A stretch of DNA of 64,000 bases from Prostheceraeus crozeri (taxonomy: Eukaryota > Platyhelminthes > Polycladida > Euryleptidae): positions 744,001-808,000 of the forward strand of contig CAJQUW010001859.1 of NCBI GenBank assembly GCA_907163375.1. The letters run 5' to 3'. Numbering within the stretch: the stretch's first letter is position 1; the number at the start of each line of letters is the position of its first letter. Both the position numbers and the translations under genes were made by a program. Below the pieces are notes generated by a model, which did not search any database, was not told the origin of the DNA, and worked only from the letters and a program-made list of their open reading frames with translations. Below are positions 16,533-45,206 of this stretch, piece by piece.

Positions 16533-16706
16533 AGTAGTAACAAAAGGTCCAGAATAAACACAGCGCGCCCTCCCCCCCCTCTGGAACGACAGAGGTTGTG
16601 GTCTGTCGTGGTGTGCCGGCCAGGTGGGTTCGCAAACTGTTCGCTGACTCCCCCCCCCTCTGCAACGACAGAGTGTGAGACTCGAGTGAGTTGGTCCGAC
16701 CGCCTG

Positions 16707-16794
16707 GTTGACTTGGGCGACCGTCCAGGTTGACGTGGGCGACCGTCTAGGTTGACGTGGGCGACCGTCTAGGTTGACGTGGGCGACCGTCTAG
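16707..16794. repeat. Four 22-bp tandem repeats in left terminus
   Basis: Four head-to-tail units contain GTTGACGTGGGCGACCG; the outermost has two changes. The mirror array lies at 44945-45032, exactly where a coordinate sum of 61739 predicts. Repeats this close to the termini are candidates for binding sites of an integrase or terminal protein; that is inference. Confidence 0.85.
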
Positions 16795-16824
16795 GTTGTC
16801 GTGGATGGTGAAATGGCTGCCAGA

Positions 16825-18050
16825 TTCGGATTCAGCGTAAAATTCTGCATCTGTGGTGTGATTTCCAGCTCAATCGGCGAGAAAAAATTTTTCTTCAAAA
16901 TTTTAACAGAGTTAAAATTTGGGACGTTTTGGTGTGTAGCGCCCAAACGAGCCATCGGATGAGAAAACGGAGGGCAGATTCGGATTCAGCGTGAAATTCT
17001 GCATCGGTAGGGTGAGTTTCAAGTCAATCGGAGTGAAAAAATTTTCGCTGACGTCCCCCCCCTCTGGACAGCTTGCTTCGATTTTGGCTTCCAGTGGACG
17101 GATTTTGTCGTGCGATAGCTCGTTTGAAAGCTAAGAGTGAGACAAATTCAGTGAAAGAAACGGCTTGTTCCTATCTGTCTTCGTTTGGATGTCAGACGCC
17201 ATTTAAGATTTTGGGAACATTGGCAAAAAACGACAGAGTTAGAATTTGGGACGTTTTGGGCTGTAGCTTCAAAACGAAGCATCGGATTGGAAAACGGATT
17301 TCAGATTTGGAATCAGCGTGAAATTCTCTATCTGTATGGTGAGTTTCAAGTCAATTGGCGAGAAAAAATTTTCAACATTTTTCGAAAAAACGACAGAGTT
17401 AGAATTTGGGACGTTTTGGTGTGTGGCGCCCAAACGAACCATCGGATGGGAAAACGGAGGCCAGATTCGGATTCAGCGTCAAATTCTGCATCCGTATGGT
17501 GAATTTGAACGCCATCGGAGAGAAAAAATTTTCGCTGACGTCCCCCCCCCCTCTGGTCAGCTTGCTTCGATTTTGGCTTCCAGTGGACGGATTTTGTCGT
17601 GCGATAGCTCGTTTGAAAGCTAAGAGTGAGAAAAATTCACTGAAAGAAACGGCTTGTTCCTATCTGTCTTCGTTTAGATGTGAGACGCCATTTAAGATTT
17701 TGGGACATTGGCGAAAAACGACAGAGTTAGAATTTGGGACGTTTTGGGCTGTAGCTTCAAAACGAAGCATCGGATTGGAAAACGGATTTCAGATTTGGAA
17801 TCAGCGTCAAATTCTTTATCTGTATGGTAAGTTTCATATCAATCGGAGAGTTTCGAGTCAATCGGCGAGAGAAATGTTCAACATTTTTCGGAAAAACGAG
17901 AGTTAGAATTTTTGCGATGGCTGCCTTCTGTAGAGCCAAAACGAAGCATCGGATGGGAAAACGGAGGCCAGATTCGGATTCAGCGTCAAATTCTACATGG
18001 AAATGAAGTATTTCCAGCTCAATCGGAGCACTAGAACCGGAGATAGACGG
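16825..18050. repeat. GC-tract satellite, left arm, about 2.5 units of 489 bp
   Basis: Each ~489-bp unit is made of three related ~163-bp subunits marked by CGACAGAGTTAGAATTTGGG, and carries one run of 7-10 C followed by TCTG. About 2.5 units are present here against about 19.5 in the right arm. Frames of 60-166 codons occur because stops are scarce, but subunit length shifts the frame, so they are not counted as genes. Confidence 0.9.
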
Positions 18051-18076
18051 GATTTTTAGTGTTTGGATGATGGGTA

Positions 18077-18161
18077 TTACGTCATCAGCTGATCGCCACA
18101 CACTATATAAGCTGGGAACCGACGGAGACTTTTCATTTAGAGGAGAACGATTGTCAGAGGT
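18077..18161 (+). promoter_or_regulatory. Inward-facing promoter in left arm
   Basis: In 35 bp there is a CRE/ATF-like TTACGTCA (18077-18084), an E-box CAGCTG (18086-18091) and a strong TATA box TATATAAG (18104-18111). A start site would be expected near 18135. A splice-donor-like AG|GTAGGT follows at 18158-18163. The layout reads as a core RNA polymerase II promoter plus a short non-coding first exon pointing towards the core. It lies just inside the satellite and is mirrored in the right arm. Confidence 0.6.
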
Positions 18162-18599
18162 AGGTCGTCTCTCTGAGCTCCGATGATAGCTTCGGACATT
18201 CCAAATCCCGAGTTTCTGTAAGAAACCGACTTAGAAAATTTCATTGCTGATATCAGCTAAGGCGTCAGACTTAGAGATTCGCCAGGAGATGGCCTTCGTC
18301 TCCAGGCCATAAAAGACTCCAAAACTTTAAAGGCTCGTAACTTTGCTTCTACAAGTCCGTTTGACTTGATTCAAAAAAGGTTCGGTCGCTATTGACCTGT
18401 CCTAAGTGATGGACTACTTATAAAATTTCATAAGTAGTGCTAAAAAGTTGAAAAATTTAAATTCACTAGTTTTGGAGGTTTTCTGGGGTTTTCGACCCTG
18501 CTGAAGTCAATGAAAGCATTTTTAATGATGTCTGAGCCAGTCTTCTCATGCTATAAGCGGCTTTTCACTGAAAGCGAGCAAGACACGGAGAGTTTTGCT

Positions 18600-19950
18600 G
18601 TAATATTCCACTGACAGGGTGTTCCTTCGGGACGGCGGACGATGCCGTAGTGATAAGTGTGGCAAGGGAATGTGTCATATTTGAGACCGTAACCGCTGGG
18701 GCAACTCATGTTGGGCATTTGACACAGCTCTCAACGTAGCACTTTGAACGCCAATCGGTTGAGTCTTAGCTATCTTGTCATGGGTGGCCTCTAAACATCT
18801 CCATTGCAAAACGCTGGTGAATCAAGCTCTCTACGGCTTGCTATCAAGCTGATCAAAGCAATAACTTGGGATGTTTCCTCAAGGTTTTCAAGTATGCTGA
18901 GTTCAAATCTGCTATCAGATTTCAAATTCAACTAAGACTAAGGCAGCTTTGAGGGGTTAGATCCCAGCTACTGTTCACTACCTTTGACTCGGCGTTGCTG
19001 TTACCACTTCGGGGCAGTGACAATGATGTCTTAAGCTGTAAAGAGCGGGTATCGGGGAAGATCTCTCACTTCCCTAGTGATCAGTACAAGGCCTTCGGGC
19101 TGTCGACGGGATCGAGTGCCACTCACTACACTCAAATCTATCATTCCTCACTAAGTGTAAATTACTGACTATACATTTGTCCTGCTATCAGGTTATTTTT
19201 GACTTGCTATCTAGTTGAATAGTCTCTTGCTATCAAGAGATTCACTTCTACTCATAAAGCACATCATCGCTGTAATACCTCCTTTGCTCGAGCGTTCCTT
19301 CGGGACGGCGGGTACTGCCGTAGAGGGATTGTGTTGCACGGGTTGTTCGTCGTTTGTTAGACCGAAACCTCTGAGCCGTTGCTCATGTTGGGCGTTCGAC
19401 TTCATACTCAACGTGACGCTTTCTCTCGCCAGGTCAGAGTACTTCAGCCATTCGACAAAGGTTAGTCTTTATGATATGGAGTAGAGTGAAATGTAATTCA
19501 TTAAATGTCCCTTCAATGATTGCTCCCATGATAAACGTTGATGAGACAAATGAAATGATTCTCATCTTCCCTTTTCAATGATTGAAATCTACTAACACAC
19601 TACCGTATAATCGTCCACTATGGGGCAAGACATGATAGAGCCTCCACGCGGTTTGCCCTGGGCAGTCTTTAGACTGGCGAATACTATCATTAAGTTGAAT
19701 CTGTTATCAGTCAACTTGAACGTTGCAAATGAAGTTCGGTGTAATACTTCCTTTCGACGGGTGTTCCTGTAAAGGGCGGCGGTGAAACCCGTAGCTATGT
19801 ATACCGCAAGGGACATTTGGCAATGGTCAATCTTGTTAAACCTCTCTGCGTCATGTTTGCAAGTGATTGCCGCTGTCTCAACGTAGTATGCATTCGCGCC
19901 AGGGCGACATTTAGCCAACTGTCGAAGGTTGCCTAAAACTTTCCATTGCA
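18600..19950 (+). repeat. Three diverged structured modules (M1-M3), left arm
   Basis: M1 (about 18600-18790), M2 (about 19175-19470) and M3 (about 19690-19950) share ordered blocks. These are TGTAATA, GTTCCTTCGGGACGGCGG, CCGTAG, TCATGTTGGGC and CTCAACGT. M1 and M2 can both form a 5-bp stem ACGGC/GCCGT with a 7-nt loop; the loop differs while the stem is kept. M3 replaces it with the arms ACGGGT/ACCCGT. A 119-codon frame on the opposite strand of M3 has no recognised family. The modules could be leader/promoter units or a structured RNA. The function is unknown. Confidence 0.6.
19181..19237. promoter_or_regulatory. Triplet of CTTGCTATCAAG-type boxes, left arm
   Basis: Boxes lie at 19181-19192 (CCTGCTATCAGG), 19203-19214 (CTTGCTATCTAG) and 19226-19237 (CTTGCTATCAAG). 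The 22-23 bp spacing is about two helical turns. Each is a near-palindrome (CTTG-N4-CAAG). Single copies also stand at 18837-18848 and, as CTGYTATCAG, at 18909 and 19701. They precede module M2 and look like operator sites for a DNA-binding protein. Confidence 0.55.
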
Positions 19951-20064
19951 TACGTTATGAGAACCATGAGTTCTACCTGTCTCTATCAATGAGACGAATT
20001 GATGAATGGAATGAAATGGGAGGACACTCACGCGCCACACGCAACATAACACACTTCTCTCTTT

Positions 20065-20400
20065 CGTAGTCTAACAAGCTCTTTACACATGGATCGCAGT
20101 CGATTGCTATCCCTGTATCAGAAGTGTAAGCTATCTTAATTTTATTTGACACTATTTCATCTATCATCATCGCCCATATGAAATGTTTTAAGATTTACAA
20201 GTTAGACTAAGCGTGCTACTATTTCCAAATGAAGAAGTATACATGGTTAAATCATCCACTTAAGCCCATCCGTAGTCTAACAAGCTCTTTACACATGGAT
20301 CGCAGTCGATTGTTATCCCTGTATCAGAAGTGTAAGCCATCTTAGGTTTATTTAACACTATTTCATCTACCATCATCACCCATATGAAGTGTCATAAGAT
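20065..20400. repeat. Direct duplication of ~100 bp, period 206 bp
   Basis: A segment starting CGTAGTCTAACAAGCTC occurs at 20065 and again at 20271 with a few substitutions. It is mirrored in the right arm near 33050-33357. It carries small frames on the strand pointing outward, and most differences between copies change amino acids, so coding is not supported. Confidence 0.7.
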
Positions 20401-23400
20401 TTACAAGTTAGAAATAAAGTTTCAATAGTGTATGCGTTAGAAATAAAGGTGTAACTGTTTGTAAAAATAAGATCGCAAGATTTACTAGTTTACAAGTTAG
20501 ACTAAGTGTAAATTAAAAATAAAATTATAACTGTTTCAAGAGTTTACAAGTCAGAAATTAAGTTTTAGCTGTTTGTATATCAAAATAAAGTTTCAAGAGT
20601 TTACAAGTTAGAAATAAAGTTTCAATAGTGTATATGTTAGAAATAAAGGTGTAACTGTTTGTAAAAATAAGATCGCAAGATTTACTAGTTTACAAGTTAG
20701 ACTAAGTGTAAATTAAAAATAAAATTATAACTGTTTCAAGAGTTTACAAGTTAGAAATTAAGTTTTAGCTGTTTGTATATCAAAATAAAGTTTCAAGAGT
20801 TTACAAGTTAGAAATAAAGTTTCAATAGTGTATATGTTAGAAATAAAGGTGTAACTGTTTGTAAAAATAAGATCGCAAGATTTACTAGTTTACAAGTTAG
20901 ACTAAGTGTAAATTAAAAATAAAATTATAACTGTTTCAAGAGTTTACAAGTTAGAAATCAAGTTTTAGCTGTTTGTATATCAAAATAAAGTTTCAAGAGT
21001 TTACAAATTAGAAATAAAGTTTCAATAGTGTATATGTTAGAAATAAAGGTGTGACTGTTTGTAAAAAATAAGATCGCAAGATTTACTAGTTTACAAGTTA
21101 GACTAAGTGTAAATTAAAAATAAATTATAACTGTTCACGTGTTAAAGCGTTGATGCAACGATGAACAATTAATAAGCTGAAAAGTTTTAGATTCACTTTA
21201 ACATTATCATATGTTTACAGATAGAAATGTATTACAGCAAAGCTACTTCATGAGTTAGTTTGCCAGGAGTGTATCATCTCAAACTTTTACTCCGACTGTG
21301 GAACATTGATTTCCATGATGAAGATTTAAATAGTTAGATTCGATGGCGAACAAGATTTACTAGTTTACAAGTTGGACAAAGTGTTCTACTATTTGTAAAT
21401 GAAAGATATCATTTCAACAGTTTAGCAGTTAGAAATAAAGTTTCAACAGTCTACAAGTTAAAAATAAAATTATAACTGTTTCAAGAGTTTACAAGTTAGA
21501 AATTAATTTTTAATGGTGTATACGTTAGAAATAAAGTTTTAGCTGTTTGTATATCAAAATGAAGTTTCAAGAGTTTACAAGTTAAGAATAAAGTTCTATC
21601 TGCTTGTATGTTAGAAATAAAACAAAGTTTCAACCGTTAACAAGTTAAAAATAAAGTTTCAATAGTTTACAAGTTAAGAATAAAGTTTCAATAGTGTATG
21701 TGTATATTAAGAATAAAGTTTTATCTGTTTCTATGATAGAAATAAAACAAAGTTTCAACCGTTTACAAGTTAAAAATAAAGTTTCAATAGTTTACAAGTT
21801 AAGAATAAAGTTTCAATAGTGTGCATGTTCAGAATAAAGTTCTATCTGTTTCTATGATAGAAATAAAACAAATTTTCAACCGTTTACAAGTTAGAAATAA
21901 AGTTTCACCAGTGTACAAGTTAGAAATAAAGTTTCAATAGTTTATATGTTAGAAATAAAGCTTTATCTGTTTACATGTTAGAAACAAAATAAAGTTTCAA
22001 CAGTTTAAAAGATAAAAACTAAAGTTTCAATGGTGTATACGTTAGAAATAAAGTTTTAGCTGTTTGTATATCAAAATAAAGTTTCAAGAGTTTACAAGTT
22101 AGAAATAAAGTTTCAATAGTGTATATGTTAGAAATAAAGGTGTAACTGTTTGTAAAATAAGATCGCAAGATTTACTAGTTTGCAAGTTAGACTTAGCGTT
22201 CTACTATTTGTAAGTGAAAGATATAGTTTCAACAGTTTACAGATTAAAAATAAAGTTTGAACAGTGTGTATGTTGGAAATAAAGTTTAAGCTGTTTGTGT
22301 GTTAGAAATAAAACAAAGTTTCAATAGTTTACAAGTTAAAAATAAAGTTTCAATAGTTTACAAGTTAAGAATGAAGTTTCAATAGTGTGCATATATTAAG
22401 AATAAAGTTTCATCTGTTTGTATGATAGAAATAAAACAAAGTTTTAACCGTTTGCAAGTTAAAAATAAAGTTTCAATAGTTTACAAGTTAAGAATAAAGT
22501 TTCAATAGTGCGTATGTTACGAATAAAGTTCTATCTGTTTATATGTTAGAAATAGAATGAAATTTCACCAGTTTACAAGTTAAGAATAAAGTTCTATCTG
22601 TTAGTATGTTAGAAATAAAACAAAGTTTCAACCGTTTACAAGTTAAAAATAAAGTTTTATCTGTTTGTATGTTAGAAATAGAGTAAAGTTTCAACCGTTA
22701 ACAAGTTAAAAATAAAGTTTCAATAGTTTGCAAGTTAAGACTAATGTTTCAATAGTGCATATGTTAAGAATAAAGTTTTATCTGTTTGTATGTTAGAAAT
22801 AAAATGAAGCTTCACCAGTTTACAAGTTAACAATAAAGTTTTATCAGCTTGTATGTTAGAAATAAAATGAAGTTTCATCAGTTTACAAGTTAAGAATAAA
22901 GTTTTATCTGTTTGCATGTTAGAAATAGAATAAAGTTTCAACCGTTAACAAGTTAAAAATAAAGTTTCAAGAGTTTACAAGTTAGAAATAAAGTTTCAAT
23001 AGTGTATATGTTAGAAATAGAGTTTTATCTGTTTGTTAAAATATGATTGCAGGATTTAATAGTTTGCAAGTTAGACTAAGCGTTCTACTATTTGTAAGTG
23101 AAAGATATAGTTTCAACAGTTTACAGATTAAAAATAAAGTTTCAACAGTGTGTATGTTGGAAATAAAGTTTAAGCTGTTTGTGTGTTAGAAATAAAACAA
23201 AGTTTCAACCGTTAACAAGTTAAAAATAAAGTTTCAATAGTTTACAAGTTAAGAATGAAGTTTCAATAGTGTGTGTGTATATTAAGAATAAAGTTTTATC
23301 TGTTTGTATGATAGAAATAAAACAAAGTTTCAACCGTTTACAAGTTAAAAATAAAGTTTCAATAGTTTACAAGTTAAGAATAAAGTTTCAATGGTGCATA

Positions 23401-24470
23401 TGTTACGAATAAAGTTCTATCTGTTTATATGTTAGAAATAGAATGAAATTTCACCAGTTTACAAGTTAAGAATAAAGTTCTATCTGTTTGTATGTTAGAA
23501 ATAAAACAAAGTTTCAACCGTTAACAAGTTAAAAATAAAGTTTCAATAGTTTGCAAGTTAAGACTAATGTTTCAATAGTGCATATGTTAAGAATAAAGCT
23601 TTATCTGTTTGCATGTTAGAAACAAAATAAAGTTTCAACAGTTTAAAAGATAAAAACTAAAGTTTCAATGGTGTATACGTTAGAAATAAAGTTTTAGCTG
23701 TTTGTATATCAAAATAAAGTTTCAAGAGTTTACAAGTTAGAAATAAAGTTTCAACACTGTGTATGTTAGAAATAAAGGTGTAACTGTTTGTAAAAATAAG
23801 ATCGCAAGATTTACTAGTTTGCAAGTTAGACTAAGCGTTCTACTATTTGTAAGTGAAAGATATAGTTTCAACAGTTTACAGATTAAAAATAAAGTTTGAA
23901 CAGTGTGTATGTTGGAAATAAAGTTTAAGCTGCTTGTGTGTTAGAAATAAAACAAAGTTTCAACCGTTAACAAGTTAAAAATAAAGTTTCAATAGTTTAC
24001 AAGTTAAGAATAAAGTTTCAATGGTGTATATTAAGAATAAAGTTTTATCTGTTTGTATGATCGAAATAAAACAAAGTTTTAACCGTTTACAAGTTAAAAA
24101 TAAAGTTTCAATAGTTTACAAGTTAAGAATAAAGTTTCAATAGTGTGCATGCTAAGAATAAAGTTCTATTTGTTTATATGTTAGAAATAGAATGAAGTTT
24201 CGTCAGTTTACAAGCTACGAATAAAGTTCTATCTGTTTAAGTTTACAAGTTAGGAATAAAGTTCTATCTGTTTGTATGTTAGAAATGAAGTTTTATCTGT
24301 TTGTATGCTAGAAATAAAGTTTCATCAGTTTCCATATTAAAAAATAAAGTTTTTAGCAGTTTACAAGTTAAAAATAAAGTTTTAATAGTGTATGCGTTAG
24401 AAATAGAGTTTTAGCCTTTGTATGCTAGAAATAAAGGTATAGCTATTTGTAAAATAATAAAAATTGTAAG
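20400..24470. repeat. AT-rich tandem array, left arm (4.1 kb)
   Basis: The basic unit is about 30 bp of the type AGTTTACAAGTTAAGAATAA followed by AGTTTCAAT. Near 20.47-21.07 kb these are grouped into a 200-bp higher-order unit marked by GATCGCAAGATTTACTAG at 20471, 20671, 20871 and 21072. A non-repetitive patch (21135-21350) follows, then a long irregular array to 24470. No gene lies within. Confidence 0.9.
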
Positions 24471-25050: not shown

Positions 25051-25350
25051 TTTACTATTGCTATTTTTAGTGACTATCTTTACAAGAAGAATGACAGTGA
25101 TGTAAGCAACATGCTTCCTAAGCTGAATAGAGCTGTTTGTGTTATTCTATTAGACATGCCGTTTAGCAAATCGGCGATACAACGATGTTGCCCACCTGTT
25201 AGAAAAATTAGCACAAGCGAGTTATGTGAAGTGTTACTTGATGATGCAAAGATACATCACATTTCATTTTTGATTGAAAATCAAAGTGCTCTTCTGAAAC
25301 TGGGCAATGGCATTCATTGTCAATTGAGTGAAAATTTGATAAAACTGTAG
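25051..25350 (+). CDS. Small uncharacterised element protein
   Basis: The frame is open from 25051; the first ATG is at 25111, giving 79 residues, or about 100 if read from a spliced or earlier start. No known domain was recognised. It contains NRAVCVILLDMPFSKSAI and a C-terminal Leu-rich stretch. It ends 20 bp before the next frame begins in another phase, so the two may be parts of one gene separated by a frameshift. It lies on the + strand with the TBP-like remnant. Confidence 0.35.
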   Translation, partial: FTIAIFSDYLYKKNDSDVSNMLPKLNRAVCVILLDMPFSKSAIQRCCPPVRKISTSELCEVLLDDAKIHHISFLIENQSALLKLGNGIHCQLSENLIKL

Positions 25351-25369
25351 TTTTTCATTGCTGTAAAAT

Positions 25370-25690
25370 GTGTTTACTGCTACACGCATGATTGGTGTAG
25401 GAATACCAATGACCCTTAATAAACATGAACAACACTTTTACATTCAAAGTGATCTGATTTCACCTATTTCTTTTGATGAGAAAAAAGAATACATTTTACG
25501 CGATTTCATTCATGACAAAGACGCTTCATATGGAATAGTCCAGATATTGTTTGAACCTATTTTCTACCATCCTATCGTCAAACAAATGATACCCTCTATT
25601 GCTATCAAAATTACCAATGGTTTACAAGAGTGCATCCACGTGAAAGATACTAAATCCCTCATAACGTTAGTGTTTCGGAAAACAAAGTGA
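25370..25690 (+). CDS. Small protein, possible virion-protein C-terminus
   Basis: A frame of 106 codons. The C-terminal half is strand-rich and ends IPSIAIKITNGL...SLITLVFRKTK. Before it come HFYIQSDLISP and FEPIFYHPIV. From memory this layout recalls the C-terminus of uncharacterised proteins encoded beside Polinton polymerases that may be structural, but I cannot verify the homology. A poly(A) signal AATAAA follows at 25785-25790. The start is the first codon the frame offers after the previous stop, and the true N-terminus may lie in the preceding frame. Confidence 0.35.
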   Translation: MFTATRMIGVGIPMTLNKHEQHFYIQSDLISPISFDEKKEYILRDFIHDKDASYGIVQILFEPIFYHPIVKQMIPSIAIKITNGLQECIHVKDTKSLITLVFRKTK

Positions 25691-25971: not shown

Positions 25972-26001
25972 ATCAAAATACTGAGTTAAGGATGAATCTA
26001 T

Positions 26002-28902
26002 TTACACGTCTCCTGAATGTGGTAGTGTGAGTTTAATTCTTTTGGGTGGTGGTATGTTTGTGTCAGGATGTCCATGTGGAAGAGATATGTTGTGTTCTAA
26101 CCAGCACCTCTTATCCTCCCATGCTGAAAGCGCCCGTTTCCTAAAAGTATGAGTTTTGATCTCATGCGACTTAGATTTTAAGATTGTCATATTGACAAAT
26201 GTTATATTTTTATTTCTATAGGCTTTCCTGAAATTCTTATGTTTCATATTTTGCACAATGGATTTTGATATGCCTTTAGCGCGCTTAATGCTATCATCAC
26301 TATCCTTTAATTTCATACTGTACATTTTTGGACGGAGGAGAATCATTTCATCTATTTCCTTCCCTGCTGTCTCATCCTTAAAGCAGCCAAGTTTTGCCTT
26401 ATTTTTGATGGAGTAGAGTGGATGATCAGCAGGATAATTTGATGTATCAAAATATCTTTCTAAAGATTTTCCTACTTCATTGAAACTTAAATCTTTTTGA
26501 GTGGTAATACCTAAGAAGAAACTATCTGTATCACCACCCAACAAACGAACCTCTTTTACGAGAGGACATGGTTTTAATATTTTATAAAAGAGTTGGTACA
26601 TTTCAAGCTTAGAATAATCTAGTACAGCTTGGCCAATATAGATGGGCTTGCACAACTCAACTTCAGATTTTATCATTTTAACACCTACAAGGTCCTCATC
26701 GATAATGTCTCTATCGATGAATAGAGGTGATGAGACCAATTTGTGATACTTTTGATCATCATTAACTAGTTTATAGTTTACACGTTTTCTAACATCCTCC
26801 ATCGTCTTACCAAATAAACTGTTGTTCTTATATTTATAAAAATCTTTTTCAAAGTTATTTTGAGCTAGTGCACGTTTCTGGCTGTTGCTATCAATATATG
26901 GTTTGAGGAAGGCTTTCTGTCTAAATTTAATAATGCGGTGAACTCTTTTTAAAATCATGCCCATTTCTAAATAAAATTTTAAGATGCTAAAGTGGACTAG
27001 ATAGTTTTCTTTATCATACTGGGTGAGTAAAAGTTTGCGGCAAGGCTTATAGTCGGGTTGTCCACATGATTCTAAATCTTTATGAAATTGTTTCATAAAG
27101 TCGGAAAACATATCTTTACTCACTTCACCTGATTCGGGTGCGAGTGGAAAATCTACGGTTTTATGTTTAATATTATTTGGATAGATTAGATCTATCTCAA
27201 AATAATATCCCCAATCACCTTCATCTGGAATTGCTAGTATGTTAGAAGGGTTGGAGAAATGTTGAATATCACTATCATCTAACCAGCTAAACTCAGAGTG
27301 AGGTAGCGGTTTGGATAATGAACTACCATACAAATTATTTTGGTCATAATACTTCAGATGGGTATGATCATTACCTACTGTTTCAGATTTTAACCTATGT
27401 TTATTTACAAATGTGAGACCACCGCGAATTCCTCGCTCAAATAAATTATACATCTCTGGATCTTGTAAGAGATGAATGGTCTCATCAGTCATTTTAAAAG
27501 CAGACTTAAATGACATGGCTGGCAGACTGACAAAGTGGACGGGATCTAACTTATCTTCTTCTAATGCCACTCGTCGAAACTCCTGAAATACATCAGCCAG
27601 CAAAAATACATCTAACTTAAGGTAGGCAATCATATATTCGCCAAATGTATGGCAGTCAAATTTTATCCATGCATCTTGTGCATGATCATAATCTTCGGTC
27701 TTACATTCTGCACCGGTCAAATCATTTTTAAATTTATCTATGGGCGGAAGAGAAGTCTCGCCGAGTTTACTAATCGCATCAAAATATGCATATGGAAAGA
27801 CTCCTTTCCGTGTGATGACTTCATCGGTTAGATTTGGATATTGTTTCTTAAGATTTTGTGTTAGTGGAAGAGACTTTAGATTTTGCACGAGAGAGGCCAG
27901 TGATGCAGTCATAAATTGGTAGGAATCTAAAAATTTTATATCAAAATAGACCGTCTTATTTTCTTTAGTTTTATCGACAGGCACTTTTGCTGTCATGGCC
28001 ATAAACTTCTCTCTCGTTTGCGCTATTACATCAAGCTTCCAATCTTTCATTTGACCTAAACCTCCTTTTATTATCATATGGCTGTCGTAGCCCTTGAAAT
28101 TATGGAAAATGACGGGTAATGTACGCCGTTTCATCCTAAGTGAAAAATTACATTTTGAACAGAGTGCGTTTCTAAATTTGCCAGTGATGTGATCATGGTC
28201 GCGCACTTTCTTAATCTTATCATCATCAAATGTTTTCCTACATTTGGGGCAAATGTTGCAGCTATCAAATTTTGCTTGATCATCTGCTGTCATATGCAAT
28301 GATCTGCGATAGAGTTCACCATCATACTTTTGTTGAAATTTTACAGCCTGTTCGAGGAATTGTAGGAATTGGTAAATACAATCCTCACCTTGCCAGACGC
28401 GCATTTTATTTTGCCTACTCCTAAAGTGATCATGCCATACTTCATAGCAGGAAATGGCTGCTGGTCGATGGATGTTATCATCGATATAGCATTCGATGTC
28501 AGCATAGATGACACGCAGGGGACTTAATTCATCACCATTCTCTCTATATGAAAACTCCTTATCTTTGGGCATGCGCTCTATTTGTAGTTTACCCCGCTTG
28601 CACCATTCATAATGACTTAGAAATTTATTTTTCGACCAAAATGGTCGTGTGCAGCGGTCGCATATGAAATGTTCACCTTTAATCGATTTTTGTATATGGC
28701 TGTAAAGGCGATGAATTTTTGGAATGCCACAGTAATGCCACTGTTGAGTATTGTCCTCATACACTAGCAAAAGGTTGACAACTCGATCATAGCTACTTTG
28801 GCGGTTGTTATACCTAACGCCTTTTAACCCTTTCTCCCAGACGTGAACCACTATCTTAATTTTATTTAATTTCTCAAATTTCTCTATATCTTTCAATTTC
28901 AT
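26002..28902 (-). CDS. Protein-primed-type family B DNA polymerase, Polinton-like
   Basis: 966 codons, uninterrupted. A C2HC finger lies at residues 81-101. Exonuclease motifs: YADIE (D135, E137), NFKGYD (N268, D273) and YLKLD (Y427, D431). Between the first two is an endonuclease-VII-like finger: CPKC at 218-221, DHDH at 235-238 and CSKCN at 248-252. Polymerase motifs: IRGG at 491-495, motif A YYDQNNLYG (D520), motif B YKNNSLFGKT (about 691-700), motif C GGDTDS (D791, D793) and KMY at 859-861. All catalytic residues are kept, so the enzyme could copy the element, presumably primed by a terminal protein. The N-terminal part (MKLKDIEKFEKLN) overlaps the upstream exon product in ATGA. The spliced 5' exons suggest that both were one gene. 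TTTATT at 25706-25711 is a possible poly(A) signal on this strand. Confidence 0.9.
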   Translation of the reverse strand: MKLKDIEKFEKLNKIKIVVHVWEKGLKGVRYNNRQSSYDRVVNLLLVYEDNTQQWHYCGIPKIHRLYSHIQKSIKGEHFICDRCTRPFWSKNKFLSHYEWCKRGKLQIERMPKDKEFSYRENGDELSPLRVIYADIECYIDDNIHRPAAISCYEVWHDHFRSRQNKMRVWQGEDCIYQFLQFLEQAVKFQQKYDGELYRRSLHMTADDQAKFDSCNICPKCRKTFDDDKIKKVRDHDHITGKFRNALCSKCNFSLRMKRRTLPVIFHNFKGYDSHMIIKGGLGQMKDWKLDVIAQTREKFMAMTAKVPVDKTKENKTVYFDIKFLDSYQFMTASLASLVQNLKSLPLTQNLKKQYPNLTDEVITRKGVFPYAYFDAISKLGETSLPPIDKFKNDLTGAECKTEDYDHAQDAWIKFDCHTFGEYMIAYLKLDVFLLADVFQEFRRVALEEDKLDPVHFVSLPAMSFKSAFKMTDETIHLLQDPEMYNLFERGIRGGLTFVNKHRLKSETVGNDHTHLKYYDQNNLYGSSLSKPLPHSEFSWLDDSDIQHFSNPSNILAIPDEGDWGYYFEIDLIYPNNIKHKTVDFPLAPESGEVSKDMFSDFMKQFHKDLESCGQPDYKPCRKLLLTQYDKENYLVHFSILKFYLEMGMILKRVHRIIKFRQKAFLKPYIDSNSQKRALAQNNFEKDFYKYKNNSLFGKTMEDVRKRVNYKLVNDDQKYHKLVSSPLFIDRDIIDEDLVGVKMIKSEVELCKPIYIGQAVLDYSKLEMYQLFYKILKPCPLVKEVRLLGGDTDSFFLGITTQKDLSFNEVGKSLERYFDTSNYPADHPLYSIKNKAKLGCFKDETAGKEIDEMILLRPKMYSMKLKDSDDSIKRAKGISKSIVQNMKHKNFRKAYRNKNITFVNMTILKSKSHEIKTHTFRKRALSAWEDKRCWLEHNISLPHGHPDTNIPPPKRIKLTLPHSGDV

Positions 28903-31000: not shown

Positions 31001-31149
31001 ATCGAAGATTAAAGTAGTTAGATTCGACGTCGAAGGCAAATTCACTGAAAAGGATACGTAAGATTTATTTCATTTTACCTATGATGATCATGTGAATAGT
31101 CATTCAATGAACATGAGTCAATCAACACTTCGAAATGCTCCATACCATG

Positions 31150-31440: not shown

Positions 31441-31724
31441 TCACCAACACTCACCTTATGAAAGATAAATGTGAAGAGTAGAGCTGGTGCACTACCTTTT
31501 ATAAGATTTTCCTAAGCGGTGAATGGATGAGACGTCTCGTCCAATCACAAGACGATCAGGAGTTTCCAGTGCGCTCACACACTTCCAATTAATGCTGATG
31601 TCACAAACTCTCTTTTATGAACGTATGAGCATCTATTTGAATCTGTCAATGTACATTCCTATTGCGATATGATTTATTCGTTGATGATTTTACTATGATA
31701 TCTTATGTGTTCAGAGCTTGCTCA

Positions 31725-33022: not shown

Positions 33023-33471
33023 TCTTATGACACTTCATATGGGTGATGATGGTAGATGAAATAGTGTTAAATAAACCTAAGATGGCTTACACTTCTGATA
33101 CAGGGATAACAATCGACTGCGATCCATGTGTAAAGAGCTTGTTAGACTACGGATGGGCTTAAGTGGATGATTTAACCATGTATACTTCTTCATTTGGAAA
33201 TAGTAGCACGCTTAGTCTAACTTGTAAATCTTAAAACATTTCATATGGGCGATGATGGTAGATGAAATAGTGTCAAATAAAATTAAGATAGCTTACACTT
33301 CTGATACAGGGATAGCAATCGACTGCGATCCATGTGTAAAGAGCTTGTTAGACTACGAAAGAGAGAAGTGTGTTATGTTGCGTGTGGCGCGTGAGTGTCC
33401 TCCCATTTCATTCCATTCATCAATTCGTCTCATTGATAGAGACAGGTAGAACTCATGGTTCTCATAACGTA

Positions 33472-34822: not shown

Positions 34823-35260
34823 AGCAAAACTCTCCGTGTCTTGCTCGCTTTCAGTGAAAAGCCGCTTATAGCATGAGAAGACTGGCTCAGACATCATTAA
34901 AAATGCTTTCATTGACTTCAGCAGGGTCGAAAACCCCAGAAAACCTCCAAAACTAGTGAATTTAAATTTTTCAACTTTTTAGCACTACTTATGAAATTTT
35001 ATAAGTAGTCCATCACTTAGGGCAGGTCAATAGCGACCGAACCTTTTTTGAATCAAGTCAAACGGACTTGTAGAAGCAAAGTTACGAGCCTTTAAAGTTT
35101 TGGAGTCTTTTATGGCCTGGAGACGAAGGCCATCTCCTGGCGAATCTCTAAGTCTGACGCCTTAGCTGATATCAGCAATGAAATTTTCTAAGTCGGTTTC
35201 TTACAGAAACTCGGGATTTGGAATGTCCGAAGCTATCATCGGAGCTCAGAGAGACGACCT

Positions 35261-35345
35261 ACCTCTAACAATCGTTCTCCTCTAAATGAAAAGTCTCCGT
35301 CGGTTCCCAGCTTATATAGTGTGTGGCGATCAGCTGATGACGTAA
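35261..35345 (-). promoter_or_regulatory. Inward-facing promoter in right arm
   Basis: Mirror copy of the left-arm promoter: CTTATATA (TATA box on the - strand), CAGCTG and TGACGTAA lie within 35 bp. It points to the polymerase gene, 4.2 kb downstream. With donor-like sequence after the predicted start, a long 5' intron reaching the acceptor at 31045 is possible. Confidence 0.55.
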
Positions 35346-35371
35346 TACCCATCATCCAAACACTAAAAATC

Positions 35372-38300
35372 CCGTCTATCTCCGGTTCTAGTGCTCCGAT
35401 TGAGCTGGAAATACTTCATTTTCATGTAGAATTTGACGCTGAATCCGAATCTGGCCTCCGTTTTCCCATCCGATGCTTCGTTTTGGCTCTACAGTAGGCA
35501 GCCATCGCAAAAATTCTAACTCTGTCGTTTTTCCGAAAAATGTTGAACATTTTTCTCGCCGATTGACTCGAAACTCTCCGATTGACTTGAAACTCACCAT
35601 ACAGATAAAGAATTTCACGCTGATTCCAAATCTGAAATCCGTTTTCCAATCCGATGCTTCGTTTTGAAGCTAGAGCCCAAAACGTCCCAAATTCTAACTC
35701 TGTCGTTTTTCGCCAATGTCCCAAAATCTTAAATGGTGTCTCACATCTAAACGAAGACAGATAGGAACAAGCCGTTTCTTTCACTGAATTTGTCTCACTC
35801 TTAGCTTTCAAACGAGCTATCGCACGACAAAATCCGTCCACTGGAAGCCAAAATCGAAGCAAGCTGTCCAGAGGGGGGGGGGACGTCAGCGAAAATTTTT
35901 CTCTCCGATTGACTTGAAACTCACCATACCGATGCAGAATTTCACGCTGAATCCGAATCTGGCCTCCGTTTTCTCATCCGATGCTTCGTTTTGGCTCTAC
36001 AGTAGGCAGCCATCGCAAAAATTCTAACTCTGTCGTTTTTTCGAAAAATGTTGAAAATTTTTTCTCTCCGATTGACTTGAAACTCACCATACAGATAAAG
36101 AATTTCACGCTGATTCCAAATCTGAAATTCGTTTTCCAATCCGATGCTTCGTTTTCAAGCTAGAGCCCAAAACGTCCCAAATTCTAACTCTGTCGTTTTT
36201 CGCCAATGTCCCAAAATCTTAAATGGTGTCTCACATCTAAACGAAGACAGATAGGAACAAGCCGTTTCTTTCACTGAATTTGTCTCACTCTTAGCTTTCA
36301 AACGAGCTATCGCACGACAAAATCCGTCCACTGGAAGCCAAAATCGAAGCAAGCTGTCCAGAGGGGGGGGGACGTCAGCGAAAATTTTTCTCTCCGATTG
36401 ACTTGAAACTCACCATACCGATGCAGAATTTCACGCTGAATCCGAATCTGGCCTCCGTTTTCTCATCCGATGCTTCGTTTTTGCTCTACAGTAGGCAGCC
36501 ATCGCAAAAATTCTAACTCTGTCGTTTTTTCGAAAAATGTTGAAAATTTTTTCTCTCCGATTGACTTGAAACTCACCATACAGATAAAGAATTTCACGCT
36601 GATTCCAAATCTGAAATCCGTTTTCCAATCCGATGCTTCGTTTTGAAGCTACAGCCCAAAACGTCCCAAATTCTAACTCTGTCGTTTTTTGCCAATGTCC
36701 CAAAATCTTAAATGGCGTCTCACATCTAAACGAAGACAGATAGGAACAAGCCGATTCTTTCACTGAATTTGTCTCACTCTTAGCTTTCAAACGAGCTATC
36801 GCACGACAAAATCCGTCCACTGGAAGCCAAAATCGAAGCAAGCTGTCCAGAGGGGGGGGGACGTCAGCGAAAATTTTTTCTCTCCGATGGCGTTCAAATT
36901 CACCATATGGATGCAGAATTTGACGCTGAATCCGAATCTGGCCTCCGTTTTCCCATCCGATGGCTCGTTTGGGCGCCACACACCAAAACGTCCCAAATTC
37001 TAACTCTGTCGTTTTTTCGAAAAATGTTGAAAATTTTTTCTCGCCAATTGACTTGAAACTCACCATACAGATAGAGAATTTCACGCTGATTCCAAATCTG
37101 AAATCCGTTTTCCAATCCGATGCTTCGTTTTGAAGCTAGAGCCCAAAACGTCCCAAACTCTAACTCTGTCGTTTTTCGCCAATGTCCCAAAATCTTAAAT
37201 GGCGTCTCACATCTAAACGAAGACAGATAGGAACAAGCCGTTTCTTTCACTGAATTTGTCTCACTCTTAGCTTTCAAACGAGCTATCGCACGACAAAATC
37301 CGTCCACTGGAAGCCAAAATCGAAGCAAGCTGTCCAGAGGGGGGGGTGGACGTCAGCGAAAATTTTTCTCTCCGATTGACTTGAAACTCACCATACCGAT
37401 GCAGAATTTCACGCTGAATCCGAATCTGGCCTCCGTTTTCTCATCCGATGCTTCGTTTTTGCTCTACAGTAGGCAGCCATCGCAAAAATTCTAACTCTGT
37501 CGTTTTTTCGAAAAATGTTGAAAATTTTTTCTCGCCGATTGACTTGAAACTCACCATACAGATAAAGAATTTCACGCTGATTCCAAATCTGAAATCCGTT
37601 TTCCAATCCGATGCTTCGTTTTGAAGCTACAGCCCAAAACGTCCCAAATTCTAACTCTGTCGTTTTTCGCCAATGTCCCAAAATTTTAAATGGCGTCTCA
37701 CATCTAAACGAAGACAGATAGGAACAAGCCGTTTCTTTCAGTGAATTTGTCTCACTCTTAGCTTTCAAACGAGCTATCGCACGACAAAATCCGTCCACTG
37801 GAAGCCAAAATCGAAGCAAGCTGTCCAGAGGGGGGGGGACGTCAGCGAAAATTTTTTCTCTCCGATGGCGTTCAAATTCACCATATGGATGCAGAATTTG
37901 ACGCTGAATCCGAATCTGGCCTCCGTTTTCCCATCCGATGGCTCGTTTGGGCGCCACACACCAAAACGTCCCAAATTCTAACTCTGTCGTTTTTTCGAAA
38001 AATGTTGAAAATTTTTTCTCGCCAATTGACTTGAAACTCACCATACAGATAGAGAATTTCACGCTGATTCCAAATCTGAAATCCGTTTTCCAATCCGATG
38101 CTTCGTTTTGAAGCTAGAGCCCAAAACGTCCCAAACTCTAACTCTGTCGTTTTTCGCCAATGTCCCAAAATCTTAAATGGCGTCTCACATCTAAACGAAG
38201 ACAGATAGGAACAAGCCGTTTCTTTCACTGAATTTGTCTCACTCTTAGCTTTCAAACGAGCTATCGCACGACAAAATCCGTCCACTGGAAGCCAAAATCG

Positions 38301-41300
38301 AAGCAAGCTGTCCAGAGGGGGGGTGGACGTCAGCGAAAATTTTTCTCTCCGATTGACTTGAAACTCACCATACCGATGCAGAATTTCACGCTGAATCCGA
38401 ATCTGGCCTCCGTTTTCTCATCCGATGCTTCGTTTTTGCTCTACAGTAGGCAGCCATCGCAAAAATTCTAACTCTGTCGTTTTTTCGAAAAATGTTGAAA
38501 TTTTTTTCTCGCCGATTGACTTGAAACTCACCATACAGATAGAGAATTTCACGCTGATTCCAAATCTGAAATCCGTTTTCCAATCCGATGCTTCGTTTTG
38601 AAGCTACAGCCCAAAACGTCCCAAATTCTAACTCTGTCGTTTTTCGCCAATGTCCCAAAATTTTAAATGGCGTCTCACATCTAAACGAAGACAGATAGGA
38701 ACAAGCCGTTTCTTTCAGTGAATTTGTCTCACTCTTAGCTTTCAAACGAGCTATCGCACGACAAAATCCGTCCACTGGAAGCCAAAATCGAAGCAAGCTG
38801 TCCAGAGGGGGGGGGACGTCAGCGAAAATTTTTTCTCTCCGATGGCGTTCAAATTCACCATATGGATGCAGAATTTGACGCTGAATCCGAATCTGGCCTC
38901 CGTTTTCCCATCCGATGGTTCGTTTGGGCGCCACACACCAAAACGTCCCAAATTCTAACTCTGTCGTTTTTTCGAAAAATGTTGAAAATTTTTTCTCGCC
39001 AATTGACTTGAAACTCACCATACAGATAGAGAATTTCACGCTGATTCCAAATCTGAAATCCGTTTTCCAATCCGATGCTTCGTTTTGAAGCTAGAGCCCA
39101 AAACGTCCCAAATTCTAACTCTGTCGTTTTTCGCCAATGTCCCAAAATCTTAAATGGCGTCTCACATCTAAACGAAGACAGATAGGAACAAGCCGATTCT
39201 TTCACTGAATTTGTCTCACTCTTAGCTTTCAAACGAGCTATCGCACGACAAAATCCGTCCACTGGAAGCCAAAATCGAAGCAAGCTGTCCAGAGGGGGGG
39301 GGTGGACGTCAGCGAAAATTTTTTCACTCCGATTGACTTGAAACTCACCATACCGATGCAGAATTTCACGCTGAATCCGAATCTGGCCTCCGTTTTCTCA
39401 TCCGATGCTTCGTTTTGGCGCTACAGTAGGCAGCCATCGCAAAAATTCTAACTCTGTCGTTTTTTCGAAAAATGTTGAAAATTTTTTCTCGCCAATTGAC
39501 TTGAAACTCACCATACAGATAAAGAATTTGACGCTGATTCCAAATCTGAAATCCGTTTTCCAATCCGATGCTTCGTTTTGAAGCTAGAGCCCAAAACGTC
39601 CCAAATTCTAACTCTGTCGTTTTTCGCCAATGTCCCAAAATCTTAAATGGCGTCTCACATCTAAACGAAGACAGATAGGAACAAGCCGTTTCTTTCAGTG
39701 AATTTGTCTCACTCTTAGCTTTCAAACGAGCTATCGCACGACAAAATCCGTCCACTGGAAGCCAAAATCGAAGCAAGCTGTCCAGAGGGGGGGGGACGTC
39801 AGCGAAAATTTTTTCTCTCAGATGGCGTTCAAATTCACCATACGGATGCAGAATTTGACGCTGAATCCGAATCTGGCCTCCGTTTTCCCATCCGATGGTT
39901 CGTTTGGGCGCCACACACCAAAACGTCCCAAATTCTAACTCTGTCGTTTTTTCGAAAAATGTTGAAAATTTTTTCTCGCCAATTGACTTGAAACTCACCA
40001 TACAGATAGAGAATTTCACGCTGATTCCAAATCTGAAATCCGTTTTCCAATCCGATGCTTCGTTTTGAAGCTAGAGCCCAAAACGTCCCAAATTCTAACT
40101 CTGTCGTTTTTCGCCAATGTCCCAAAATCTTAAATGGCGTCTCACATCTAAACGAAGACAGATAGGAACAAGCCGTTTCTTTCACTGAATTTGTCTCACT
40201 CTTAGCTTTCAAACGAGCTATCGCACGACAAAATCCGTCCACTGGAAGCCAAAATCGAAGCAAGCTGTCCAGAGGGGGGGGTGACGTCAGCGAAAATTTT
40301 TTCTCTCCGATTGACTTGAAACTCACCATACCGATGCAGAATTTCACGCTGAATCCGAATCTGGCCTCCGTTTTCTCATCCGATGCTTCGTTTTTGCTCT
40401 ACAGTAGGCAGCCATCGCAAAAATTCTAACTCTGTCGTTTTTTCGAAAAATGTTGAAAATTTTTTCTCGCCGATTGACTTGAAACTCACCATACAGATAA
40501 AGAATTTCACGCTGATTCCAAATCTGAAATCCGTTTTCCAATCCGATGCTTCGTTTTGAAGCTACAGCCCAAAACGTCCCAAATTCTAACTCTGTCGTTT
40601 TTTGCCAATGTCCCAAAATTTTAAATGGCGTCTCACATCTAAACGAAGACAGATAGGAACAAGCCGTTTCTTTCAGTGAATTTGTCTCACTCTTAGCTTT
40701 CAAACGAGCTATCGCACGACAAAATCCGTCCACTGGAAGCCAAAATCGAAGCAAGCTGTCCAGAGGGGGGGGGACGTCAGCGAAAATTTTTTCTCTCCGA
40801 TGGCGTTCAAATTCACCATATGGATGCAGAATTTGACGCTGAATCCGAATCTGGCCTCCGTTTTCCCATCCGATGGTTCGTTTGGGCGCCACACACCAAA
40901 ACGTCCCAAATTCTAACTCTGTCGTTTTTTCGAAAAATGTTGAAAATTTTTTCTCGCCAATTGACTTGAAACTCACCATACAGATAGAGAATTTCACGCT
41001 GATTCCAAATCTGAAATCTGTTTTCCAATCCGATGCTTCGTTTTGAAGCTAGAGCCCAAAACGTCCCAAATTCTAACTCTGTCGTTTTTCGCCAATGTCC
41101 CAAAATCTTAAATGGCGTCTCACATCTAAACGAAGACAGATAGGAACAAGCCGATTCTTTCACTGAATTTGTCTCACTCTTAGCTTTCAAACGAGCTATC
41201 GCACGACAAAATCCGTCCACTGGAAGCCAAAATCGAAGCAAGCTGTCCAGAGGGGGGGGGGTGGACGTCAGCGAAAATTTTTTCACTCCGATTGACTTGA

Positions 41301-44300
41301 AACTCACCATACCGATGCAGAATTTCACGCTGAATCCGAATCTGGCCTCCGTTTTCTCATCCGATGCTTCGTTTTGGCTCTACAGTAGGCAGCCATCGCA
41401 AAAATTCTAACTCTGTCGTTTTTTCGAAAAATGTTGAAAATTTTTTCTCGCCAATTGACTTGAAACTCACCATACAGATAGAGAATTTGACGCTGATTCC
41501 AAATCTGAAATCCGTTTTCCAATCCGATGCTTCGTTTTGAAGCTAGAGCCCAAAACGTCCCAAATTCTAACTCTGTCGTTTTTCGCCAATGTCCCAAAAT
41601 CTTAAATGGCGTCTCACATCTAAACGAATACAGATAGGAACAAGCCGATTCTTTCACTGAATTTGTCTCACTCTTAGCTTTCAAACGAGCTATCGCACGA
41701 CAAAATCCGTCCACTGGAAGCCAAAATCGAAGCAAGCTGTCCAGAGGGGGGGGGACGTCAGCGAAAATTTTTTCTCTCAGATGGCGTTCAAATTCACCAT
41801 ACGGATGCAGAATTTGACGCTGAATCCGAATCTGGCCTCCGTTTTCCCATCCGATGGTTCGTTTGGGCGCCACACACCAAAACGTCCCAAATTCTAACTC
41901 TGTCGTTTTTTCGAAAAATGTTGAAAATTTTTTCTCGCCAATTGACTTGAAACTCACCATACAGATAGAGAATTTCACGCTGATTCCAAATCTGAAATCC
42001 GTTTTCCAATCCGATGCTTCGTTTTGAAGCTAGAGCCCAAAACGTCCCAAATTCTAACTCTGTCGTTTTTCGCCAATGTCCCAAAATCTTAAATGGCGTC
42101 TCACATCTAAACGAATACAGATAGGAACAAGCCGATTCTTTCACTGAATTTGTCTCACTCTTAGCTTTCAAACGAGCTATCGCACGACAAAATCCGTCCA
42201 CTGGAAGCCAAAATCGAAGCAAGCTGTCCAGAGGGGGGGTGGACGTCAGCGAAAATTTTTCTCTCCGATTGACTTGAAACTCACCATACCGATGCAGAAT
42301 TTCACGCTGAATCCGAATCTGGCCTCCGTTTTCTCATCCGATGCTTCGTTTTTGCTCTACAGTAGGCAGCCATCGCAAAAATTCTAACTCTGTCGTTTTT
42401 TCGAAAAATGTTGAAAATTTTTTCTCTCCGATTGACTTGAAACTCACCATACAGATAAAGAATTTCACGCTGATTCCAAATCTGAAATCCGTTTTCCAAT
42501 CCGATGCTTCGTTTTGAAGCTACAGCCCAAAACGTCCCAAATTCTAACTCTGTCGTTTTTCGCCAATGTCCCAAAATCTTAAATGGCGTCTCACATCTAA
42601 ACGAATACAGATAGGAACAAGCCGATTCTTTCACTGAATTTGTCTCACTCTTAGCTTTCAAACGAGCTATCGCACGACAAAATCCGTCCACTGGAAGCCA
42701 AAATCGAAGCAAGCTGTCCAGAGGGGGGGGGACGTCAGCGAAAATTTTTTCTCTCAGATGGCGTTCAAATTCACCATACGGATGCAGAATTTGACGCTGA
42801 ATCCGAATCTGGCCTCCGTTTTCCCATCCGATGGTTCGTTTGGGCGCCACACACCAAAACGTCCCAAATTCTAACTCTGTCGTTTTTTCGAAAAATGTTG
42901 AAAATTTTTTCTCGCCAATTGACTTGAAACTCACCATACAGATAGAGAATTTCACGCTGATTCCAAATCTGAAATCCGTTTTCCAATCCGATGCTTCGTT
43001 TTGAAGCTAGAGCCCAAAACGTCCCAAATTCTAACTCTGTCGTTTTTCGCCAATGTCCCAAAATCTTAAATGGCGTCTCACATCTAAACGAATACAGATA
43101 GGAACAAGCCGATTCTTTCACTGAATTTGTCTCACTCTTAGCTTTCAAACGAGCTATCGCACGACAAAATCCGTCCACTGGAAGCCAAAATCGAAGCAAG
43201 CTGTCCAGAGGGGGGGTGGACGTCAGCGAAAATTTTTCTCTCCGATTGACTTGAAACTCACCATACCGATGCAGAATTTCACGCTGAATCCGAATCTGGC
43301 CTCCGTTTTCTCATCCGATGCTTCGTTTTTGCTCTACAGTAGGCAGCCATCGCAAAAATTCTAACTCTGTCGTTTTTTCGAAAAATGTTGAAAATTTTTT
43401 CTCGCCAATTGACTTGAAAGTCACCATACAGATAAAGAATTTCACGCTGATTCCAAATCTGAAATCCGTTTTCCAATCCGATGCTTCGTTTTGAAGCTAC
43501 AGCCCAAAACGTCCCAAATTCTAACTCTGTCGTTTTTTGCCAATGTCCCAAAATCTTAAATGGCGTCTCACATCTAAACGAAGACAGATAGGAACAAGCC
43601 GTTTCTTTCAGTGAATTTGTCTCACTCTTAGCTTTCAAACGAGCTATCGCACGACAAAATCCGTCCACTGGAAGCCAAAATCGAAGCAAGCTGTCCAGAG
43701 GGGGGGGGACGTCAGCGAAAATTTTTTCTCTCCGATGGCGTTCAAATTCACCATATGGATGCAGAATTTGACGCTGAATCCGAATCTGGCCTCCGTTTTC
43801 CCATCCGATGGTTCGTTTGGGCGCCACACACCAAAACGTCCCAAATTCTAACTCTGTCGTTTTTTCGAAAAATGTTGAAAATTTTTTCTCGCCGATTGAC
43901 TTGAAACTCACCATACAGATAGAGAATTTCACGCTGATTACAAATCTGAAATCCGTTTTCCAATCCGATGCTTCGTTTTGAAGCTAGAGCCCAAAACGTC
44001 CCAAATTCTAACTCTGTCGTTTTTCGCCAATGTCCCAAAATCTTAAATGGCGTCTCACATCTAAACGAAGACAGATAGGAACAAGCCGATTCTTTCAGTG
44101 AATTTGTCTCACTCTTAGCTTTCAAACGAGCTATCGCACGACAAAATCCGTCCACTGGAAGCCAAAATCGAAGCAAGCTGTCCAGAGGGGGGGTGGACGT
44201 CAGCGAAAATTTTTCTCTCCGATTGACTTGAAACTCACCATACCGATGCAGAATTTCACGCTGAATCCGAATCTGGCCTCCGTTTTCTCATCCGATGCTT

Positions 44301-44914
44301 CGTTTTGGCTCTACAGTAGGCAGCCATCGCAAAAATTCTAACTCTGTCGTTTTTTCGAAAAATGTTGAAAATTTTTTCTCGCCAATTGACTTGAAACTCA
44401 CCATACAGATAGAGAATTTCACGCTGATTCCAAATCTGAAATCCGTTTTCCAATCCGATGCTTCGTTTTGAAGCTACAGCCCAAAACGTCCCAAATTCTA
44501 ACTCTGTCGTTTTTCGCCAATGTCCCAAAATCTTAAATGGCGTCTCACATCTAAACGAATACAGATAGGAACAAGCCGTTTCTTTCACTGAATTTGTCTC
44601 ACTCTTAGCTTTCAAACGAGCTATCGCACGACAAAATCCGTCCACTGGAAGCCAAAATCGAAGCAAGCTGTCCAGAGGGGGGGGACGTCAGCGAAAATTT
44701 TTTCACTCCGATTGACTTGAAACTCACCCTACCGATGCAGAATTTCACGCTGAATCCGAATCTGGCCTCCGTTTTCTCATCCGATGCTTCGTTTGGGCGC
44801 TACACACCAAAACGTCCCAAATTTTAACTCTGTTAAAATTTTGAAGAAAAATTTTTTCTCGCCGATTGAGCTGGAAATCACACCACAGATGCAGAATTTT
44901 ACGCTGAATCCGAA
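35372..44914. repeat. GC-tract satellite, right arm, ~19.5 units of 489 bp
   Basis: A tandem array of the same satellite as in the left arm. Alternating unit variants give a 977-981-bp higher-order period. It is visible as 217-codon frames recurring at 36431, 37409, 38386, 39366, 40344, 41325, 42302 and 43279. Each unit has three ~163-bp subunits and one G-run of 7-10 next to ACGTCAGCG. The recurrent frames (142 and 217 codons, - strand) follow the repeat period and switch frame between subunits. I regard them as non-genic. Confidence 0.92.
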
Positions 44915-44944
44915 TCTGGCAGACATTTCACCATCCACGACAAC

Positions 44945-45032
44945 CTAGACGGTCGCCCACGTCAACCTAGACGGTCGCCCACGTCAACCTAGACGGTCGC
45001 CCACGTCAACCTGGACGGTCGCCCAAGTCAAC
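44945..45032. repeat. Four 22-bp tandem repeats in right terminus
   Basis: Exact mirror of 16707-16794. Beyond it the last 174 bp contain two runs of 8 or more G, each preceded by CTCTGTCGTT, echoing the satellite's own C-tract and CGACAGAG motif. Confidence 0.85.
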
Positions 45033-45206
45033 CAGGCGGTCGGACCAACTCACTCGAGTCTCACACTCTGTCGTTGCAGAGGGGGGGGAGTCAGCGAACA
45101 GTTTGCGAACCCACCTGGCCGGCACACCACGACAGACCACAACCTCTGTCGTTCCAGAGGGGGGGGGAGGGCGCGCTGTGTTTATTCTGGACCTTTTGTT
45201 ACTACT

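Follow-up and report, generated by a model that had tools for sequence, protein, structure and literature searches.

The window analysed here is a stretch of 64,000 nucleotides from the polyclad flatworm Prostheceraeus crozeri (assembly GCA_907163375.1, contig CAJQUW010001859.1, positions 744,001 to 808,000). It contains a Polinton-like element of 28.7 kb with the termini AGTAGTAAC.../...GTTACTACT, in which a DNA polymerase gene (PolB) lies in a core of about 7.3 kb between two long inverted arms (Table 1). The outermost 47 bases of the two ends are perfect inverted complements of each other, with the first indel following, and the terminal inverted repeats carry the (AGT)2//(ACT)2 or similar motif of Polintons and Mavericks. 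The original prediction, made from the letters of this stretch, had inverted termini bordered by AATGGA on both sides, and the hexamer is indeed present at either border.

The left arm measures about 7.9 kb and the right arm about 13.5 kb. Going inward from each end, they consist of an outer repeat of about 0.7 kb, the 487-bp unit, a 2.5-kb segment and a 29-bp satellite, followed by the core; the inner part of the right outer repeat overlaps the 487-bp array. The inverted similarity runs through both arms. Positions 17899-20867 pair with 32555-35523 over 2969 nt, a stretch printed as 100% complementary, with 5 differences counted over 2498 nt of it. The satellite-filled inverted arms that had been predicted are borne out by the 487-bp unit, present about 19 times in the right arm, and by the 29-bp family in both arms; the repeat counts are those of the assembly. 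About 302 bp that directly follow the predicted PolB promoter (31147-31450) recur inverted at 19180-19481 (approximate positions). This second copy lies within the 2.5-kb segment and is about 94-95% identical to the first, so that the arm holds a copy of the start region of the PolB gene. On the minus strand, each 977-bp repeat contains an open frame of 217 amino acids (aa), eight times between 36431 and 43932. The first of these eight frames has no Pfam match, and they are probably due to chance.

Table 1. Features of the element and its borders in the window (positions count from the first letter of the window).
Feature	Position	Strand	Remark
Whole element	16533..45206	none	end base common to 30/30 fetched end loci
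Left target-site duplication	16527..16532	none	AATGGA
Right target-site duplication	45207..45212	none	AATGGA
Outer terminal inverted repeat, left	16533..17209	+	contains 22-bp repeats 16697-16804
487-bp unit, left arm	17210..17898	+	about 1.4 copies
2.5-kb non-satellite arm segment, left	17899..20396	+	
29-bp satellite, left arm	20396..24450	+	about 4 kb
Broken 3' stub (full gene, 519 aa, found next to another PolB family)	25051..25690	+	two frames, 25051-25350 and 25367-25690
PolB main open frame	26002..28902	-	966 aa, with endonuclease VII-like insert
Zinc-finger N-terminal part of PolB	28899..29789	-	out of frame with main part in window copy
Predicted upstream PolB exons and TATA box (31503)	29833..31503	-	prediction only
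29-bp satellite, right arm	31716..33026	-	1.3 kb
2.5-kb non-satellite arm segment, right	33026..35523	-	5 differences from left one
487-bp unit, right arm	35574..44804	-	18.9 copies as 977-bp higher-order repeat
Outer terminal inverted repeat, right	44510..45206	-	contains 22-bp repeats 44935-45042

The predicted PolB gene is present in the core, although in the window copy a split near 28900 divides its frame. The endonuclease VII-like insert is matched in Pfam with an E value of 4.8e-7; the window protein by itself has no match to the Pfam domain DNA_pol_B_2. At E up to 0.001 there are 3141 homologues. The best 120 of these include relatives of 73-95% identity from other data sets, and those aligned are mostly encoded in a single long frame. 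The endonuclease VII match was found in all 21 aligned proteins and DNA_pol_B_2 in five of the 21; the residues that presumably represent the exonuclease and polymerase motifs of family B are invariant or nearly so among them. By homology, the gene appears to encode a Polinton-type family B DNA polymerase of the protein-primed type. Upstream of it, there are a predicted TATA box and six predicted GT-AG introns with phases matching the open frames, which suggests a spliced gene with a proline-rich N-terminal extension.

Searches elsewhere returned little. PHROGs gave endonuclease VII only, viral contigs gave no confirmed relatives, and PDB sequence searches gave no convincing match. Bacterial and archaeal genome contigs gave none in one search and, in a second, one contig with 38% identity (L056) that was not used further. 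Rfam had no match at the gathering threshold over 16000-46000. Two proteins, a PolB 84% identical to that of the window (P0002) and a protein one residue different from that of the window's stub gene described below (P0130), both have a longest contig of 6237 bases and may be neighbours in another data set, with a high identity of the stub beside a lower identity of PolB.

The element belongs to a high-copy family with precise common ends in one genome. The 2.05-Gb host assembly, of which the window is a part, has 542 occurrences (251 + 291) of the exact 15-base end, versus 26 of the reversed control, which rules out a chance inverted repeat. All 30 fetched end loci (of 40 scored) start at the identical base, and the outcome that would have refuted the prediction, ends unique to this copy, is thereby excluded. 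A search for further copies with 6-bp duplications, proposed together with the original prediction, found the duplication perfect in all nine copies for which both flanks were available, with nine different 6-mers (AATGGA, CATTAT, CACATT, GACGAT, AATCAC, AATGTT, CACAAT, CAAATT and GCCATT), as is characteristic of Polintons and Mavericks. No empty site was present among the loci available. Half the excess of ends would correspond to some 250 elements, a figure that gives the order of size only and includes single ends and fragments. The count of 542 applies to the whole assembly and end positions are listed for contigs C11 to C1761; among these listed matches, 19 pairs of plus and minus ends are spaced 19.7-28.7 kb apart, with a median of 22.1 kb. 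A search of the assembly with PolB gave 28,788 first-look candidates; 47 places were scored, and every one of them was at 98-100%. A single 1271-aa frame without a stop is found in 36 of these 47 copies; in the remaining 11, which include the window copy, the frame is shorter or contains a stop. Within C11-C1761 there are 13 PolB contigs: eight with both ends, two with one and three with none. Judged by eye from their flanks, the insertions in C11509 and C7363 apparently lie within retroelement-like coding sequence, a setting in which paralogous empty sites may exist.

One layout is common to the read parts of eight other copies: outer repeat, 487-bp array, 2.5-kb segment, 29-bp satellite and PolB core, followed by the same blocks in mirror order. 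Three of these copies (C10238, C8164 and C13472) were read through in pieces, and C11509 almost so. The length of the 487-bp array varies: the window copy has its long array on the right, C4125 on the left. In C11509 the satellite of the right arm is gone, as is most of the 2.5-kb segment on that side. In C788 and C436 the core is flanked on both sides by the same satellite (judged in part from the end letters). Seven copies have two complete 2.5-kb segments; in these, the segments within one element have 0-9 differences, whereas full segments of different elements have 2-30; C4690 has none within and 18-30 against all other full segments. These differences indicate that the two arms match at insertion and that the insertions are young.

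The genes that usually accompany PolB were not recovered intact in the frames scanned. The Pfam scans covered the window open reading frames (ORFs), among the short ones only some, and other copies were judged by layout alone. In the scanned ORFs, we found no retrovirus-like (RVE) integrase, a gap that the original prediction had missed, and no sequence search aimed at integrases was made. The other hallmarks of Polintons and Mavericks, capsid proteins, packaging ATPase and protease, were likewise without a match in these ORFs apart from the broken stub of one capsid-like gene. Neither the set of major and minor capsid protein and packaging ATPase that marks Polinton-like viruses nor the transposase expected of a foldback transposon was found there.

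Polinton-type genes reside elsewhere in the genome. A query with a distant PolB (P0120) revealed two other PolB families, with 33 loci scored of 37,011 candidates; five loci have a 1364-aa frame, and 28 have a 1272-aa frame, except for one stop in C10598. All 150 scored places (of 1517 candidates) for the A32-type ATPase had matches above the Pfam cut-off. None of these lies inside the 19 listed end pairs; C559, C679 and C788 share a contig with a pair, and all three are outside it. Two F3-type contigs have an A32-type ATPase about 75 kb (C952) and about 35 kb (C2278) from PolB, not evidently in the same element. Two or more additional PolB families and no fewer than 150 matches to the A32-type ATPase make the host genome unusually rich in Polinton-type elements.

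Convergent with PolB lies the broken stub, which is open for 213 aa in two sister copies, L007 and L008. Six homologues of it were found, later 11 including those six, none of them named (P0128 has 359 aa). In the 4 kb beyond the PolB of L061, a locus of the second, 28-locus family, there are convergent ORFs of 519 and 476 aa. The last 149 aa of the 519-aa protein are 96% identical to the stub of L007, and the DNA identity to L061 is 91% for window positions 25241-26027, 96.5% for L007 and 96.0% for L008. The two ORFs resemble each other (22% similarity, E 6e-17) and have no convincing Pfam match; from their motifs and from this mutual similarity, we take them to be putative penton-like minor capsid proteins. 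Beyond the 476-aa gene, L061 has two short, mutually similar plus-strand ORFs (3310-3687 and 3698-4000), also with no convincing Pfam match. These comparisons suggest that the window family derives by deletion from a fuller type of Polinton, one that the genome still contains.

The two genes of the core differ in their constraint. Between subfamilies (L001-L006 versus L007-L008), the ratio of nonsynonymous to synonymous differences per site (pN/pS) is 0.07-0.10 for PolB, with 43.5-55.5 synonymous differences in about 568 sites and 13.5-18.5 nonsynonymous differences in about 2330. For the stub frame (107 codons), the same pairs give about 0.6-0.8, with 5-10 synonymous differences in about 67 sites and 12-23 nonsynonymous in about 254; L007 and L008 alone differ by 3 and 3. 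PolB is under purifying selection, and the stub is relaxed and much less maintained. Exchange with fuller families could blur this contrast.

We propose, with a probability of roughly 0.65, that the element is an internally deleted, integrase-less Polinton/Maverick derivative that supplies its own polymerase for replication and borrows the means of integration. PolB and integrase have been called universal Polinton signatures (PMC4642659), and as an integrase was not found we file the element as a derivative and not as a Polinton in the strict sense. The original prediction of a derived Polinton variant holds as to the relationship, given the PolB homology, the ends, the 6-bp duplications and the stub kept in a fuller relative. 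The word giant does not fit, since 28.7 kb is within the published range of 15-25 kb and up to 40 kb (PMC6431247). In the proposed cycle, each element would make PolB, and PolB would replicate the element in the form of linear DNA, with protein priming at the AGTAGT ends, which would leave the two arms of one element alike. The integrase of a resident Polinton would then insert the copy with a 6-bp stagger. The window copy would depend on other copies for PolB because its own frame is split. The satellites would be expanded spacer and not machinery, and we regard Polinton arms as places where satellite DNA grows.

Several observations count against this proposal. The putative integrase to be borrowed was not found, and none was searched for by sequence. 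The Pfam scans may have missed genes that are short or split, and four of the eight mapped copies have unread gaps (C4690 about 3 kb, C499 about 5 kb, C7363 about 5 kb and C4125 about 10 kb). The other PolB families do not share the exact 15-base end, which is absent from all six of their contigs within the listed range (C20, C611, C952, C1041, C1320 and C1590); this speaks against simple borrowing from them. The comparison with the fuller family is confined to the 3' neighbourhood of its PolB. Within the group of the window copy, the pN/pS of PolB is 0.04-0.73 on small counts, and the arm differences within and between elements overlap.

Alternatively, the element could be a plain non-autonomous Polinton that is replicated and integrated in trans from full Polintons, with PolB as an undecayed passenger. 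The young insertions indicated by the arm differences, the abundance of full-length relatives (the 33 other-family PolB loci and 150 ATPase matches) and the interrupted frames in 11 of the 47 scored copies, including that of the window, would all suit a passenger, and selection in a fuller ancestor could explain part of the low ratio in PolB. The contrast between PolB and the adjoining stub in the same copies argues the other way; on this ground the passenger was rejected as the leading reading, and we consider it unlikely.

It is quite improbable that PolB alone confers autonomy, that is, that a polymerase with a nuclease insert and a spliced N-terminal extension both copies the element and effects integration. 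Neither a DDE integrase nor a capsid would then be needed. In favour of this reading, selection is seen on PolB and on no other gene, and no family that combines these ends with an integrase turned up, although no search took an integrase as its target. However, the endonuclease VII match in 21 of 21 homologues is not special to the window family, and it is also weakly present in integrase-bearing Mavericks of Spodoptera (PMC5803895). The 6-bp duplications, moreover, fit a retroviral-type integrase.

We give very little credence to a foldback-type transposon that captured a PolB gene. The long inverted arms of the element are made of tandem repeats, as in the foldback elements of Drosophila, which differ from it in transposase type and duplication length. 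The ends and the 6-bp duplication are instead those of Mavericks (PMC8097293), and next to another PolB family the stub continues into Polinton-like neighbouring genes; a foldback origin was rejected for these reasons. An assembly artefact, in which genes are missing through collapse of arms that are rich in satellites and hard to assemble without reads, is hardly credible, because copies on different contigs have a common layout with identical core-to-satellite borders, which rules it out as the whole explanation, and the spacing of the 19 listed end pairs also speaks against it.

Some further frames of the window were noted. Positions 24495-24771 are frame-broken and weakly like half a TATA-binding protein, the first 58 codons being identical in the loci compared; a TATA-binding protein is not claimed for 24495-24683, where the Pfam match (E 0.025) is below the cut-off. 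In the flank, the ORF at 5653-6561 matches DUF4817 (E 7e-9) and that at 13199-13762 matches a reverse transcriptase just below the cut-off (E 2e-6); both are ordinary transposon remnants, and taken by themselves they would suggest an animal host, perhaps an arthropod.

Polintons, with polymerase plus integrase as their definition, are viewed as integrating viruses. Within one genome and one high-copy family, only the polymerase is maintained here in the parts examined, and the capsid-like neighbour decays. If this is true of the family as a whole, polymerase and integration functions have been separated by a natural experiment, in which the polymerase would serve chiefly the DNA carrying its own gene and integration can be borrowed. 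Such a family is a natural test of the parts that these elements need for spread, by which PolB action in cis, the end sequence that the integrase needs and a satellite-like life off full Polintons could be tested.

Long inverted arms with tandem repeats are also found in Tlr1 of Tetrahymena. Like the element, Tlr1 is a reduced Polinton relative, but it is described as being without a polymerase and as keeping the integrase, ATPase and capsid genes (PMC4642659). The element shares with Polintons and Mavericks a PolB of the protein-primed type (by homology), the (AGT)2//(ACT)2 ends, the 6-bp duplications and the size (PMC8097293, PMC6431247). It differs from them in having no integrase, capsid, ATPase or protease in the scanned ORFs and in its arms of 8-13 kb, which are mostly satellites. 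Splicing of its PolB gene is probable from the prediction; for intact vertebrate Mavericks, by contrast, a lack of introns has been described (PMC8097293). A match to endonuclease VII was known before, as the PolB of Sf Maverick 1 and 2 of Spodoptera has a weak one; unlike the element, these have at least nine ORFs, including ATP, INT, PRO and CAP (PMC5803895). No description of a PolB-only Polinton family was found in the open-access literature; subscription papers, Repbase and Dfam were outside this search. The PolB of bidnaviruses, too, came from a Polinton, but there the partner was a parvovirus (PMC4061559). Integrase-less Polinton-like viruses resemble the element in being integrated without an RVE integrase of their own, and borrowing from resident Polintons has been proposed for them. 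They keep the capsid proteins and packaging ATPase, and several are without the protein-primed PolB, so that the element is their reverse (PMC4642659).

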